Assembly (NCBI RefSeq): GCF_003709565.1
Contig: NZ_QNRC01000013.1
Coordinates: 1 to 64,000, forward strand
DNA: 64,000 nucleotides
Direction: 5' to 3'
DNA from: Paracoccus sigandri
GTDB taxonomy: Bacteria; Pseudomonadota; Alphaproteobacteria; Rhodobacterales; Rhodobacteraceae
Shown: in pieces, positions 14,992 through 19,354 of the stretch
How positions within the stretch are numbered: position 1 is the stretch's first letter
How the letters are laid out: each line of letters opens with the position of its first letter
The notes under the pieces: model-generated
Database searches by the model: none
The model's input: the letters and a program-made list of their open reading frames with translations, nothing else
Told to the model about the DNA's origin: nothing
Made by a program: the position numbers and the translations under genes

Positions 14992-15939
14992 CTATCGCCC
15001 CCCGGCCCTTGCGCGGCGCTCCAGCGCCGCCGCGATCGCCTGCGGGATGGGCTGCCCGGTCCGGTCCGAGCAGAACAGGTATTCGCCCGCCGGGTTGATC
15101 TCGAAGAAGACATGCTCGCCCTCCGGGGTCAGGCGGAAATCGGCGGCGGCGAAATACAGGTTCATCTGCGCCATCAGCGCCAGAAGCTTCGCCGCGACAT
15201 CATCGGGCAGCGCATAGGGCGCCACCTCGGCGCTGCCGATGCCGGGGCGATAGTCGACCTCGTATTCCGGGCGAGAGCGGAACGAGGTCGCGTGGATCTC
15301 GCCGTCCACCACCGTCACCCGCAGATCCAGCGCCAGCGGGACGTATTCCTGGAAGATCACCGGCGCGTAGGCCACGCTGTCCAGCCGCGCCAGGTCCGCA
15401 GGCCCCAGCAGCAGCGTGTTGCGCGGCGCCTGCGGGATGTTGCGGAACGCCTTGCGGATCACCCCGGCGGCGGCATGGGCGTCGATGAAGGCGCGCGCCT
15501 CGTCGGGGTCGTTGGTGACCAGGGTTTCCGGCACCCGCAGCCCCAGCCGATGCGCCAGCCGGTGCTGCATCACCTTCTTCAGCGCCCGGTCGTCGGCATC
15601 GGGCGGGTTCATCCAGAAACAGGGCATCGCGTGCCACATCCCCGCCAGGGCCTCGGTGCATTCCGACCAGGCGAACAGCCGCGCCGTCTGGTCGGTCAGC
15701 GCCGGATCCAGCGTGAAGGGCCGCACCCGCCGGTGCCAGACCGCCCGCACCGCGTCCAGGTCCAGCCGCTGCCCGTCCGGCAATGTCAGCTGAAAGCTGT
15801 CCGCCCGCCGCCCGGTCCGGGCGTGCATCCGCATCCGCGAGGGGAACCAGCCGATATCCACGACCTGACAGGGCATGGTCAGATGCTGCACCACGCGCCG
15901 GACATGGTCGTTGTCGATGAACGAGAGGATCAGGATCAT
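14992..15939 (-). CDS. ATP-grasp ligase of the MvdC/MvdD (graspetide) type
   Basis: 315 aa, the size of MvdC/MvdD-like ATP-grasp enzymes. These use ATP to join side-chain carboxylates (Asp/Glu) to Ser/Thr hydroxyls or Lys amines in ribosomal peptides. Visible ATP-grasp elements are Lys163 (GVIRKAFRN), the hinge FQEYV (196-200), DLRV at 205-208, DFR at 267-269 and the metal-binding FFEINPAGEY (Glu280, Asn282). The N-terminal pre-ATP domain has the typical aromatic VWHRRVRPF and NPP of this family. It is the last gene of a minus-strand set, 66 bases after the M43 protease, with GGGCGG before the ATG. No short separate precursor peptide is nearby, so a neighbouring protein may be the substrate. 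The assignment is from motif memory; a cellular amino-acid ligase is the alternative. Confidence 0.8.
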   Translation of the reverse strand: MILILSFIDNDHVRRVVQHLTMPCQVVDIGWFPSRMRMHARTGRRADSFQLTLPDGQRLDLDAVRAVWHRRVRPFTLDPALTDQTARLFAWSECTEALAGMWHAMPCFWMNPPDADDRALKKVMQHRLAHRLGLRVPETLVTNDPDEARAFIDAHAAAGVIRKAFRNIPQAPRNTLLLGPADLARLDSVAYAPVIFQEYVPLALDLRVTVVDGEIHATSFRSRPEYEVDYRPGIGSAEVAPYALPDDVAAKLLALMAQMNLYFAAADFRLTPEGEHVFFEINPAGEYLFCSDRTGQPIPQAIAAALERRARAGGR

Positions 15940-16005
15940 CGGGCCGCCCTTTCGCAGCAGATACGGACCCGCCGCCGCGGCGGGCCGCGTCTTCGCCTCC
16001 GCCCG

Positions 16006-17433
16006 CTATCGGCCGCCCAGCTGCTGATAGGCCGCATAGGCCTGCTGCCAGGCCGCCAGCCCCTGCGCGTCGAGCAGGCCGCGCTGGTGAAGGCTGGCAT
16101 AGCTTTGCAGGATCTGCGCGTAATGCGCCAGCAGCGGCGCGGGTTGCTGGGCCGAGGCGGCAGGCGCGCCGGTGCCCAGCACGAAGGGCGTCGCCGGCTG
16201 CATGGGCGGCTGTATCGGCGGCGTCACGACCGGCGGCCCCAGCGGCGGGCCGAAGGGCGGCTCCAGCGCCGATTTCGGCGGATCGGTCAGGCCCTTGGGC
16301 GGGTCCGCGATCCCCTTGGGCGGGTCGATCACCTGCTTCGGCGGCTCGAAAATCCCCTTCGGCGGGTCATAGATCGGCGGTTTCGGCGGATCCTGCACCG
16401 GGTTCTTCGGGCCGTCCTGGATGATGCTTTTCGGCGGATCGTTGGCCAGCGACTTAGGAACCGGATCCGAGAGCGGATCCTTGGCGGCATCCTTGAAGGG
16501 CGGCTTGCCGCCGCAGGGCACCGTCTCGCCGATGGCGCTGCGCGGCCCGTCCAGACAGGCATGCATCCGCACCACCTGGCCCTCGGAAAACATCACCATC
16601 GCCGCGTCGTCGACATAATCCATGAAATTCATGAACATGTCGCCATTCGGCCCGTTGCTGCAGGAAATCGTCGGAAAGCTCGGCTCCCCGGTATTCGGCC
16701 CGCCCTGGTTGGGGGTGTCGTCGACGAAATCGCTGCCCGAGCAGCCCCCGCCGTCGTCGCCCCAGATATGGCGCAGGTTCAGCCAGTGGCCGATCTCGTG
16801 CGTGGTGGTGCGGCCGCGGTTGAAGGGCGGGCTGGCGGTGCCGGTGGTGCCGAAGCCGGTATGGGTGACGACGACGCCATCGGTCGCGGCCGCGCCGCCC
16901 GGAAATTGCGCATAGCCCAGAAGCCCGCCCGTCAGCTGGCAGACCCAGATGTTGAGGTATTCGTCGCGCGGCCACGCGTCCGAGCCGCCCGAGGACGAGA
17001 ATTTCACCGCATCGTCGGATCCGAAGCCGTCGCGATCGGTCTGCACCCGGACCACCCCGTCATGCGGGTTGCCCGCCGGGTCGCGATCGGCCAGCGCGAA
17101 GACCAGCCGCGCATCGCCGGTCAGCGGCGCGAAGGGCGCGGGCACGGTCGAGATGTCGCCGTTGGTGGCCCGGAAATCCTGGTTCAGCACCGCGATCTGG
17201 CTGTCGATCTGCGCCTGAGAGATGTTCTGCGCGGGGGTCTTCCAGACCACATGCACCACCACCGGGATCCGCGTGCAGCCCGGACGCAGCGGCATCATGC
17301 CGCGCCGGGCACGGAAGGCCTGCTCCTCGATCCGCGCCAGCCTGCGCGCATAGTCGGGGTCGCTGTCCAACAGCCGCCGATGCACCTGCATGGTGCCACA
17401 GCTGCGGCAGACCTTGGTATTGTTCTCCGCCAT
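16006..17433 (-). CDS. M43 (pappalysin-type) zinc metalloprotease with heptad-repeat tail
   Basis: 475 aa from the ATG at 17433, preceded by a perfect GGAGGT. Residues 1-310 are an M43 metzincin: N-terminal CRSCGTMQVHRRLL, zinc site HEIGHWLNLRH (212-222) and Met-turn MNFMDY (268-273). No signal peptide is visible. Residues 332-397 are nine tandem units of [DE]-[PG]-P-K plus 3-4 residues, then a Pro-rich stretch. The last 40 residues form a helical module (HYAQILQSYASLHQRGLL) that recurs at the end of the M28 peptidase two genes upstream. Next gene downstream is the ATP-grasp ligase. The repeat of Lys and Asp/Glu is what such a ligase could cross-link; that is my inference. Confidence 0.85.
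   Translation of the reverse strand: MAENNTKVCRSCGTMQVHRRLLDSDPDYARRLARIEEQAFRARRGMMPLRPGCTRIPVVVHVVWKTPAQNISQAQIDSQIAVLNQDFRATNGDISTVPAPFAPLTGDARLVFALADRDPAGNPHDGVVRVQTDRDGFGSDDAVKFSSSGGSDAWPRDEYLNIWVCQLTGGLLGYAQFPGGAAATDGVVVTHTGFGTTGTASPPFNRGRTTTHEIGHWLNLRHIWGDDGGGCSGSDFVDDTPNQGGPNTGEPSFPTISCSNGPNGDMFMNFMDYVDDAAMVMFSEGQVVRMHACLDGPRSAIGETVPCGGKPPFKDAAKDPLSDPVPKSLANDPPKSIIQDGPKNPVQDPPKPPIYDPPKGIFEPPKQVIDPPKGIADPPKGLTDPPKSALEPPFGPPLGPPVVTPPIQPPMQPATPFVLGTGAPAASAQQPAPLLAHYAQILQSYASLHQRGLLDAQGLAAWQQAYAAYQQLGGR
16243..16440 (-). repeat. Tandem heptad repeats encoding [DE]PPK units
   Basis: Nine in-frame units of 24 or 21 bases inside the M43 protease gene. Translated units in order start DPPKSIIQ, DGPKNPVQ, DPPKPPIY, DPPKGIF, EPPKQVI, DPPKGIA, DPPKGLT, DPPKSAL and EPPFGPP. 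The first three have period 8, the rest period 7. Codons vary between units, so the protein pattern is being kept rather than being a fresh DNA duplication. Confidence 0.9.
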
Positions 17434-17510
17434 GATGACCTCCACTGAAACAATGGTTTTCCCGCCCCGCCGTCACGCGCGGCGGGCAATTCCCGTCTGC
17501 CGGCGGCGGG

Positions 17511-17819
17511 TCAGCGCTTCTTCAGGACAAGGATATTGTCCTTCAGCTCCTCGATCTCGTAATCGCCCGCCCATCCCGGCAGCTCGATATGAAGCATGTC
17601 GCCCTCGAGGCTCCACCGCCCGGTTCCCTGGCTCTGCATCGCATCGGTCGGACCGGGGGCCTTCGCCTCGGCAAGCCCGGATTCCGACAGCTCCAGCCCC
17701 CGGCGCCCGCCCCGCGTCGGCGGGATCTGCACGGTGCTGGAACGGAAGACGAAATGATCCGCCGTGGTTTCCTCGCGGATCTCGATCCATTCGCGGCAAA
17801 GCTTCGCTTCGTCGGCCAT
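17511..17819 (-). CDS. 102-aa beta-rich protein of unknown function in the protease/ATP-grasp locus
   Basis: 102 aa, starting MADEAKLCREWIEIREETTA. No signal peptide or membrane segment. Alternating polar and hydrophobic stretches (DHFVFRSS, GRWSLEGDMLHIELP, DYEIEELKDNILVLKKR) suggest a small beta-barrel of lipocalin type. A middle segment IPPTRGGRRGLELSESG followed by GPTDA looks conserved in character. It lies between the M28 and M43 peptidases, 62 bases after the first and 77 before the second, in the same direction. It could be an inhibitor, carrier or substrate of the locus; I cannot choose. Confidence 0.7.
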   Translation of the reverse strand: MADEAKLCREWIEIREETTADHFVFRSSTVQIPPTRGGRRGLELSESGLAEAKAPGPTDAMQSQGTGRWSLEGDMLHIELPGWAGDYEIEELKDNILVLKKR

Positions 17820-17881
17820 CGCTTTCCCTTCCCTTGTGGCGGGCGCCGCCCTGGCGCCCGCGAACGCCCCGGCCCCCGGCC

Positions 17882-19354
17882 TCAACCGCAGTCGGAGCGC
17901 AGATGATCGCACAGCGCCCAGAGCGATTGTCGCTCGACCAGGTCGCCCGGCGCAAGCAGCCCGTCCCGATCCAGCCGCGCATATTGCGCCAGCAGCGCCT
18001 GGTAATGCCCGGCCAGCTGGTTCTGCGCCGCCAGCACCGCCTGGTCGAACGCCGCCGGCCCCGCATTGCCGCAGCCCGCCGCCGGGGCGTCGGGCCGCGG
18101 CAGCGCGGGCTCGGCCAGCCCGGCCTCCTGCGCCAGCCAGCCGGCATTCATCCGCAGGATCTGCAGCGCATAGCCCATGTCGATCCGGTCCAGCAGGTCA
18201 TTCGCGGTATGGATGGCGTCATTGGCGCCGTCGGTCCCCTCGATCGTCAGCACGGCCGGGATGCCCGCGTCCAGGAACGGCATGTGATCGCTGCCGAAGG
18301 GCTGCAACGAGACCTGCACATCCAGGTCGGTGAAGGCGCCTGCCGCCTCGGCCAGCCGGTCGATCAGCGGCTGGCTGAGGGCCGCGCCCTCCAGCAGCAC
18401 CGCGGGCGGCTGGGCATTGACCGAGCCGATCATGTCCATGTTCAGCACCGCGCGGATCCGCGCCCGCGCCTCACCCTCCAGCCCGGCGACATATTGGGTG
18501 GAGCCGTGCAGCCCCTGCTCCTCTCCGCCGAACAGGATGAAGGTGAGGTCATGGGCGAAATCATGCGCGGCGGCGGCGGCAGCCAGGGTCAGCACCCCGG
18601 CCGAGCCGCTGGCATTGTCGTCGGCGCCGGGCGCGGGGGCATCCGGGCCGCCCGGATGATTGACCGAATCCAGGTGCCCGACCACCAGAACCTGGCCCGC
18701 ATCCGGGCCGAGGCCGGGCTTCGTCGCGATCACATTGGCGCTTGTCCCGCCGCCGACCGTGATCGGGACGGTTCTTGCCGCCAGCCCCAGCGCCTGGAAC
18801 TGCGCCTGCGCCCATGCCGCGGCCTGCGCATAGTCCGCGCTGGTCGAATGGCGCGTGCGATAAGAGACAAGATGCGTGATCGCCTGGCGGAAAACCTCGT
18901 CCTGGACCCCGGCGACCAGGGCCGGGGCGGCGGGCGGCATCGCCCTGGCCCGCCGCGGCGCATGGGTCTGGAAGACCGCCGCGTTCCGGGGCAGCGCCAT
19001 GACCTGGAAGCAGCCCTCGCCCCGCGCCGCCATGCGTTCCGCCTGCGCCTTCGTCAGCTCGGCGACCAGATAGCGCCCCTTGTCCAGCAGCACGCGCGCC
19101 CTGGGATGTTCGCGCTGGAAGGCGCGACCCTTCTGCACGACCAGCCAAAGTGCGCCCTGCCGGACGCTGCCCTGCACGCCCAGGACATGGCCCGCATCCT
19201 GCAGCGCCCTGGCCAGGCCGGGCCAGCCGTCATTGGCCACGCAGAGGAACAGATCGGTGCCAAGCCGGCTCCACCAGCCGCGGCGCTCCTCGATCACGGC
19301 AATCAGGCCGGGAATGGCGGCGTCATCGGCATGAATCGTGGCATATTTCATCAT
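17882..19354 (-). CDS. M28-family zinc peptidase with C-terminal helical module
   Basis: 490 aa from the ATG at 19354 (a second ATG follows directly). Residues 1-140 are an extra N-terminal domain without signal peptide. The M28 catalytic domain has all zinc and catalytic residues: HLDS (His227, Asp229), GADDNASG (Asp245), GGEEQG (Glu278-279), NMDMIG (Asp307) and HTANDLLD (His382). The last 45 residues (HYQALLAQYARLDRDGLL and following) match the end of the M43 protease. First gene of a four-gene set: M28, 102-aa protein, M43, ATP-grasp. A TTG at 19384 is in frame but overlaps the probable -10 box, so I reject it as start. Confidence 0.85.
   Translation of the reverse strand: MMKYATIHADDAAIPGLIAVIEERRGWWSRLGTDLFLCVANDGWPGLARALQDAGHVLGVQGSVRQGALWLVVQKGRAFQREHPRARVLLDKGRYLVAELTKAQAERMAARGEGCFQVMALPRNAAVFQTHAPRRARAMPPAAPALVAGVQDEVFRQAITHLVSYRTRHSTSADYAQAAAWAQAQFQALGLAARTVPITVGGGTSANVIATKPGLGPDAGQVLVVGHLDSVNHPGGPDAPAPGADDNASGSAGVLTLAAAAAAHDFAHDLTFILFGGEEQGLHGSTQYVAGLEGEARARIRAVLNMDMIGSVNAQPPAVLLEGAALSQPLIDRLAEAAGAFTDLDVQVSLQPFGSDHMPFLDAGIPAVLTIEGTDGANDAIHTANDLLDRIDMGYALQILRMNAGWLAQEAGLAEPALPRPDAPAAGCGNAGPAAFDQAVLAAQNQLAGHYQALLAQYARLDRDGLLAPGDLVERQSLWALCDHLRSDCG

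Follow-up and report, generated by a model that had tools for sequence, protein, structure and literature searches.

A repeat-bearing tail of an M43 protease as the probable substrate of a graspetide-type ATP-grasp ligase in Paracoccus sigandri

Which molecule does a graspetide-type ligase act upon when no small precursor gene is found beside it? The question is raised by a locus of the alphaproteobacterium Paracoccus sigandri in the window analyzed here, i.e., the entire stretch of 64,000 nucleotides at positions 1 to 64,000 of the forward strand of contig NZ_QNRC01000013.1 (assembly GCF_003709565.1). Four minus-strand genes stand there in series, separated by gaps of 62, 77, and 66 bases, and code for an M28 peptidase, a small beta-rich protein, an M43 zinc metalloprotease, and an ATP-grasp ligase of the MvdC/MvdD type. 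The M43 protease ends in a repeat tail that resembles a graspetide core, and the graspetide-type ligase adjoins it; hence, the protease itself probably contains the missing substrate. We consider it likely that this tail is what the ligase modifies, and the whole most likely represents a graspetide-like system in which a multi-core substrate is fused to an enzyme and the recognition segment is naturally C-terminal.

A ligase with no evident small precursor

The ligase (315 residues; 14992..15939, minus strand), the proposed cross-linker of the M43 tail, contains the Pfam MvdD pre-ATP-grasp domain (PF21068, ATPgraspMvdD; 7e-10, 39.4 bits against a cut-off of 27). Among solved structures, phmmer recovers MdnB (5ig8, 4e-39), MdnC (5ig9, 5e-34), and CdnC (7mgv, 3e-25), and the nearest relatives as a group are 5ig8, 5ig9, 7m4s, 9bou, and 7mgv, which include the graspetide synthetases MdnB, MdnC, AMdnB, and CdnC, some of them of the microviridin type. 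In an alignment of 50 of the 54 collected ligases (A1), D267 and N282 are invariant and E280 is nearly so; these residues are presumably catalytic. The sequences left out of A1 are L048 (a near copy), L054 (weak), and those of the Streptomyces loci L047 and L049, whose ligase genes have broken frames and match in two pieces, reflecting either decay or sequence errors. Judged by these comparisons, the ligase is a homolog of graspetide synthetases and is closest to that type among the families and structures searched. A free amino-acid ligase was considered and rejected, given that the best families and structures are those of graspetide synthetases.

No small precursor gene is evident inside the locus, where the intergenic gaps are too short for one. 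Downstream of the ligase, there is no minus-strand frame of at least 20 residues that is free of other genes, and the sole such frame in the intergenic stretch upstream of the M28 gene has 24 residues, none of them Asp, Glu, or Lys. A small precursor hidden within the locus was therefore rejected, in agreement with the earlier note on this DNA. In place of the small peptide gene that lies beside the ligase in canonical systems, the gene directly upstream is that of the 475-residue M43 protease.

The M43 tail and its end segment

The M43 protein (16006..17433, minus strand) is assigned by Pfam (Peptidase_M43, 1.6e-15, above cut-off), and its zinc site HE(I/V)GHxLNLxH is present in all eight aligned sequences, in keeping with membership of the family; the spacing and role of the third zinc ligand in this HExxHxxGxxH-like site are presumed. 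A crude hydropathy scan found no signal-peptide-like stretch in 20 front regions, including that of the M43 protein, which makes modification by the ligase in the cytosol plausible. The tail, the proposed multi-core region (residues 308-415; 16189..16512, minus strand), consists of KQVIDPPKGIADPPKGLTDPPKSALEPP and similar K-x3/4-(D/E) units, many of them separated by PP. All 12 of its Lys residues have Asp or Glu at +4 or +5 (shuffled mean 2.4; none of 20,000 shuffles as high), so that the regularly spaced Lys/Thr/Ser and Asp/Glu of a canonical core are found here, and the Lys/Asp/Glu-rich repeat tail on one peptidase described in the earlier note is borne out.

Comparable spacings recur in the tails of related loci, as counted in 30 tails with boundaries set by eye, chosen from 34 (L042, L049, and L052 were left out as near copies or close kin). 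The tails of L005, L006, and L008 have repeats (PKDx) unlike those of the window, and every Lys in them has Asp or Glu at +4 or +5 (28/28, 34/34, and 26/26). In eight astacin tails, with repeats such as TIKEVRKDP, Asp or Glu stands at +5 of 51 of the 52 Lys residues (9/9, 11/11, 5/5, 5/5, 5/5, 5/5, 5/6, and 6/6). Trypsin-like and subtilase proteins have TSIIDD, TNVLMD, or GTPVVLD repeats; in tails with Thr or Ser, Asp or Glu is found at +4 or +5 in 23/27, 22/26, 15/16, 13/19, 19/31, 17/25, 15/18, and 8/13 instances. Repeats like LKFRDD terminate M43, tyrosinase, matrixin, and stand-alone proteins across several phyla. An M43 protein on a plasmid record of Burkholderia stagnalis (L130:1894-3501; Pfam 8.9e-16) precedes a 37.6% identical ligase and ends in PFVLSTPHHS, and its tail has mostly Thr where other M43 tails have Lys (TIATAD, TIAWTD, TLATAD), as would be expected if both residues can serve as nucleophile. 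The persistence of the Lys/Thr/Ser-to-Asp/Glu spacing despite sequence change argues for the tail as substrate, and the recurrence of similar spacings in unrelated repeats is weightier than the shuffle counts.

Following the repeats, the M43 protein has the motif PFVLGT and two predicted helices (432-450 and 456-471), which together form the proposed recognition, or follower, segment (16009..16188, minus strand). The AlphaFold model is confident only over the last ~45 residues (predicted local distance difference test score, pLDDT, 70-82). In 46 of 50 related loci, the gene immediately preceding that of the ligase codes for a protein with a PF(V/I/A)(L/M/V/Q) motif 30-110 residues before its end, with L047 taken as positive despite its broken frames. 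These proteins lie 0-153 bases from the ligase match, and 11 of the 46 overlap or abut it. A stricter form of the motif gave 33 six-frame segments in L001-L054 and the window, of which 32 are in the upstream gene and one is unrelated, the window's own being counted twice. That the PF-ended protein is retained in 46 of 50 loci while its front enzyme varies is a further argument that the tail is the substrate.

Tailed enzymes and their ligases in other genomes

The related loci L005-L054 are the 50 returned by a scan of genome contigs for relatives of the ligase; such searches score part of the first-look candidates (e.g., 24 of 58), and the counts are therefore lower bounds. Their ligases are 62-76% identical to that of the window in Paracoccus and other Alphaproteobacteria, and 25-44% identical in the remainder. 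In an even sample of the window's family, a ligase match at E <=1e-20 was found in 4 of 295 genomes, the window's own included, and one of these (L002) has a tailed subtilase upstream of the ligase. Loci with a tailed protein span seven phyla, namely Pseudomonadota, Actinomycetota, Chloroflexota, Verrucomicrobiota, Acidobacteriota, Planctomycetota, and Bacteroidota.

A Pfam scan of 19 upstream proteins identified Peptidase_S8 (L002, L053), tyrosinase (L009, L010), M43 (L017), Trypsin_2 (L011, L012, L013, L035, L036, L045), astacin (L018, L020, L024, L042, L043), and matrixin, or M10 (L044), and no family in L021 or in the stand-alone L040. The two tyrosinases, from Chloroflexota (L009:3964-5481 and L010:5295-6848; Pfam E 3e-41 and 4e-42), have KFxDD-type tails, end in PFVL(S/A)TPHHS, and adjoin the ligase. 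L040 (L040:1466-1981), from a metagenome-assembled genome of Chitinophagales, is a stand-alone protein of 171 residues with KFxDD repeats and the end segment; it adjoins the ligase and looks like a multi-core precursor without an enzyme. In L021, also from Chloroflexota, the frame upstream of the ligase (L021:5358-6740; 461 residues) has no Pfam match at E 0.001 and no PF segment. In Marivita, a protein of 851 residues with alpha/beta-hydrolase and Trypsin_2 matches (L014:2699-5251) precedes the gene for a tailed trypsin-like protein. On the ligase tree, the classes of front enzyme cluster, with 10 changes where shuffles average 28.6 (none of 200 as low); the labels are from Pfam for the scanned proteins and by eye for the others, near copies add to the clustering, and the deep branches are poorly ordered.

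The same association emerges from searches blind to the ligase. Profile A4 was built from 15 end segments, none of them from the window, and includes no ligase sequence; it recovers 9 of 12 known positive genomes. It found nothing in the window's own genome, not even the window's copy, and a clade-specific profile, A5, was therefore used there. A4 was run on 1208 genomes (296 Actinomycetota, 226 Planctomycetota, 227 Acidobacteriota, 231 Chloroflexota, and 228 Bacteroidota, with one seed genome per set) and yielded two new strong matches, L064 (E 1.4e-21) and L065 (E 5.9e-23). Both are M43 proteins with KFxDD repeats, and in both, the next gene is the ligase (ligase profile E 1.5e-133 and 9.8e-131), which again argues for the tail as substrate. 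The weak matches L066-L069 (E 1e-5 to 4e-4) start past the PF motif, and their fetched stretches contain no ligase match. The segment does not seem to belong to M43 enzymes in general, a point likewise in favor of the tail as substrate: an M43 match was found in 59 of 228 Bacteroidota genomes and the segment in 1 of 228, this being the seed with its stand-alone L040, as counted per genome rather than per M43 protein and within the profile's limited sensitivity. On the same figures, the end segment was rejected as a general feature of M43 proteins.

In Planctomycetota, the ligase profile matches at E 1e-10 in 45 of 226 genomes, and 30 loci were fetched. The segment is found only in L100 and L101 (profile E 2e-31 and 2e-23), the seed genome of L019 and the genome of L065, respectively, where the ligases score at least 430 bits; in the other fetched loci, they score at most 340 bits. 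By these scores, the tailed system is confined to a subset of the ligases and is not a trait of all graspetide synthetases. L127 has a weak coiled-coil-like match to the segment (E 0.001) without the PF part. Among 20 loci with upstream frames that were read, several have by eye ordinary small precursors (e.g., L104 and L106). One planctomycete ligase (L115) is preceded by a long repeat frame with VTTMAVGEEGRGGGG units that by eye is like a multi-core precursor of the plesiocin type, and one planctomycete genome (G637) has five ligase matches.

The earlier note had also proposed a search for conservation of the gene set and its order. The M28 gene occurs together with the other three only in L005, L006, and L008 (tblastn over L001-L054), and the small protein, the M43 protease, and the ligase are found together also in loci of Conexibacter, Verrucomicrobia, Acidobacteria, and Phycisphaerales. 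By this survey, the widely conserved unit is the ligase with a tail-bearing enzyme, not the four-gene set.

The M28 peptidase (490 residues; 17882..19354, minus strand; Pfam Peptidase_M28, 5e-37, above cut-off) is aminopeptidase-like and has a helical C-terminal module (17900..18076, minus strand) in common with the M43 protein. The sharing of a module by the two peptidases, claimed in the earlier note, was confirmed by hhalign (probability 96.2%, E 2.6e-9; one comparison with four sequences on each side) and by profile A5, which in the window's own genome, with matches accepted up to E 1 and 150 of 180 candidates scored, finds only the M28 and M43 genes and detects the M28 module at E 4.1e-12 with the window's M28 absent from the profile. 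Lys/Asp repeats and the PF motif are both absent from the M28 proteins of the window, L005, L006, and L008, and by tblastn the M28 gene is restricted to these few loci; thus, the M28 protein is unlikely to be a substrate, and it was set aside as one. The core and recognition parts of the system look like the repeat tail and PFVLGT rather than the module common to M28. Possibly, M28 pairs with M43 through the helical hairpin. In the M28 relatives (L005:2997-4862, L006:3103-4788, and L008:3196-4773), the helical module is preceded or followed by a Cys-Gly run such as CGCGCG.

The small protein (102 residues; 17511..17819, minus strand) is modeled by AlphaFold2 as all-beta with about eight strands (pLDDT 87.6). 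It is weakly lipocalin-like, with a match to Pfam Lipocalin_4 below cut-off (E 0.003) and weak Foldseek matches alone, to YedD and lipocalins (best E 0.028). Within L001-L054, tblastn detects it in all seven relatives whose M43 gene is complete and nowhere else, and it also lies upstream of M43 in L130 and in L064, where it is cut by the end of the stretch; L065 has no match, its fetched stretch beginning just before the M43 frame. Of eight partner genes scanned, one, which occupies this position in the tyrosinase locus L010, weakly matches MelC1, a helper protein of tyrosinase (E 0.024), and matches a ubiquitin-like model slightly better (E 0.016). The MelC1 match suggests that the second gene may code for a helper or inhibitor dedicated to the enzyme in question. 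Small-barrel inhibitors of metalloproteases exist, and the small protein is perhaps an inhibitor or chaperone of M43.

The other claims of the earlier note on the layout of the locus hold as well, namely the order and gaps of the four genes, the identities of the M28, M43, and MvdD-type proteins, and the flanking genes, which code for flagellar FliP and valyl-tRNA synthetase (valS). Its A+T-rich promoter stands in part: the stretch preceding the M28 gene is A+T-rich, and a scan of it for promoters gave one promoter-like match against 0.6 expected, which is the level of chance.

The role of the tail and its wider meaning

In the mechanism that we propose, the ligase would bind the PFVLGT segment, which would correspond to the graspetide leader motif but occur naturally on the C-terminal side, and would use ATP to activate Asp or Glu side chains. 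These would then be joined to Lys (Thr or Ser in relatives) four or five residues earlier, with a loss of 18 Da per bond, giving up to ~12 small rings along the M43 tail. The product would be a protease with a chain of stapled rings, forming a rigid, digestion-resistant tether or spacer between the enzyme and its helical end; we offer this tether role tentatively, as a possibility somewhat short of even. The small beta-rich protein would most likely restrain or assist the M43 enzyme in the cytoplasm.

Several observations weigh against the tail as substrate. The comparison with graspetide ligase models proposed in the earlier note places TIGR04187, MvdC, and MvdD nearest, yet each scores below its NCBIfam cut-off (209.7 bits against 350 for TIGR04187, the best; 175 against 425 for MvdC; 168.2 against 475 for MvdD). 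Profile A4 misses the followers of the window, L013, and L020; four of the 50 loci have no PF segment (L018, with a degenerate motif, L021, L050, and L054); and a loose PF pattern also occurs in three unrelated frames among 30 further loci. The AlphaFold model of M43 has a mean pLDDT of 36.5 and is unusable outside the hairpin. The shuffles ignore repeat duplication, so that the spacing counts overstate independence. The KFxDD tails as a group are enriched both for Lys at +3/+4 and for Thr/Ser at +5, which leaves the linked pair ambiguous; the L015 tail is weak on both pairings (2/6 Lys at +3/+4), those of L044 and L064 have no Thr/Ser excess, and that of L053 has no clear repeats and was excluded from the counts. 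No tailed enzyme lies upstream of the ligase in L003 and L004 of the window's family (33% identical ligases), nor in the plasmid loci L131 and L132 (32% identical); among the three plasmid records read, of 31 with a ligase match, only L130 has one. Finally, the Lys/Asp/Pro repeats are compatible with a disordered linker that is not cross-linked.

Two rival explanations, each of which we regard as unlikely, concern the role of the tail and are compatible with its being the substrate. In one, the attached protease cuts off its cross-linked tail in cis, releasing small cyclic peptides. Most of the scanned front enzymes are indeed proteases, the stand-alone precursor L040 exists, and plesiocin, with repeated cyclized motifs, is a known graspetide (Carter et al. 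2026, PMC13097080); however, the tyrosinases of L009 and L010 would not cut their own tails, and these versions argue against self-processing, which the earlier note had entertained, as a general function. In the other, the cross-linked tail folds onto the active site and blocks activity for as long as it stays attached, a role that would suit enzymes without a signal-peptide-like stretch, whose activity in the cytosol must be restrained. Microviridins and plesiocin are inhibitors of serine proteases (PMC13097080). Microviridin has also been described as an inhibitor of tyrosinase. Against this, similar KFxDD repeats occur on M43, M10, and tyrosinase enzymes despite their differing active sites, and the M43 loci have a separate candidate inhibitor.

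A third rival, which we regard as quite improbable, would have the tail merely as a disordered Pro-rich linker next to a ligase that targets another, unlinked peptide. The fast-changing, low-complexity sequence of the tail is what such a linker would have, yet incidental adjacency accords poorly with its retention across seven phyla with swapping of enzymes, with the success of the reciprocal search in both new instances, and with an acceptor-donor spacing that is kept while the sequence changes. Most doubtful of all is modification of both peptidases through their shared helical module, the form proposed in the earlier note, since M28 lacks the Lys/Asp repeats and PF motif in every locus that has it and is absent (tblastn) from four M43 loci outside the window's clade, even though the module is homologous and confined to these two genes in the genome. 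Of the claim that the ligase modifies its protease neighbors, the part concerning M43 thus remains likely, and that concerning M28 probably does not hold.

The reading of the tail as substrate has a precedent in corallotide, of graspetide group 15 (Carter et al. 2026, PMC13097080), which also combines a TIGR04187-type synthetase with a large precursor, the latter having five K-x3-D sites and one Lys-Asp isopeptide demonstrated by nuclear magnetic resonance; its KIVADDP resembles the KFRDDP and KGIADPP of the tails described here. By contrast, the precursor of corallotide carries a helical domain at its N-terminus and lacks an enzyme domain, and the cluster includes a 2-oxoglutarate oxygenase and a beta-lactamase, neither of which is among the four genes here. 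The microviridin and chryseoviridin synthetases MdnB, MdnC, and CdnC are homologous to the ligase, and the leader PFFARFL shares its Pro-Phe start with PFVLGT; however, those systems have a small precursor with an N-terminal leader and a cage-like core, whereas here the precursor would be an enzyme, with its recognition segment on the C-terminal side. According to Makarova et al. 2022 (PMC8939145), roughly half of graspetide precursors have a leader motif of the form Phhx(1,2)h; PFVL fits the start of this motif, yet it stands C-terminal to the repeats and not N-terminal to the core as in the canonical arrangement. The same paper describes loci of ATP-grasp branches 7 and 8 that hold peptidases of unrelated families and whose precursors were not predictable and were proposed to lie elsewhere in the genome. 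The present clade resembles these branches in its peptidases and in having no detectable small precursor, and to judge by the description it may correspond to them; a YscW-like gene is reported for branch 7 (PMC8939145), and Pfam shows no such link for the small protein. Group 32 (PMC13097080) is likewise described as having diverse neighboring protease families, whose genes are interpreted there as perhaps serving maturation or resistance rather than as encoding precursors.

As reported by Johnson et al. 2026 (PMC13003496), fuscimiditide precursors were engineered from a leader into a follower arrangement, with RPFG suggested as the key motif, and the C-terminal segment still directs the synthetase with a roughly two-fold drop in rate; that follower was engineered, and the arrangement here appears to be natural. 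Choi et al. report that a synthetase can cyclize engineered protein substrates. Among the matches listed in the open-licence literature, by titles and the starts of abstracts, no description was found of enzyme-fused graspetide precursors or of natural C-terminal graspetide leaders.

More generally, we lean toward the view that a widespread class of enzymes, including a tyrosinase and proteases from five or more families, bears graspetide-type core repeats of its own together with a natural C-terminal recognition segment, and that a dedicated ligase cross-links these enzymes in place. If this is true, it would supply the precursors reported missing for the protease-associated synthetase branches (PMC8939145), and precursor finders built on short open reading frames and N-terminal leaders would have overlooked a whole class. 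C-terminal leaders would then occur in nature, and the modular tail with its ligase would amount to a ready tool for protein stapling. Side-chain stapling would be a means of modifying whole enzymes and not just a route to small peptides, by which bacteria would stiffen or protect the tails of their enzymes with rows of lactam or lactone staples.

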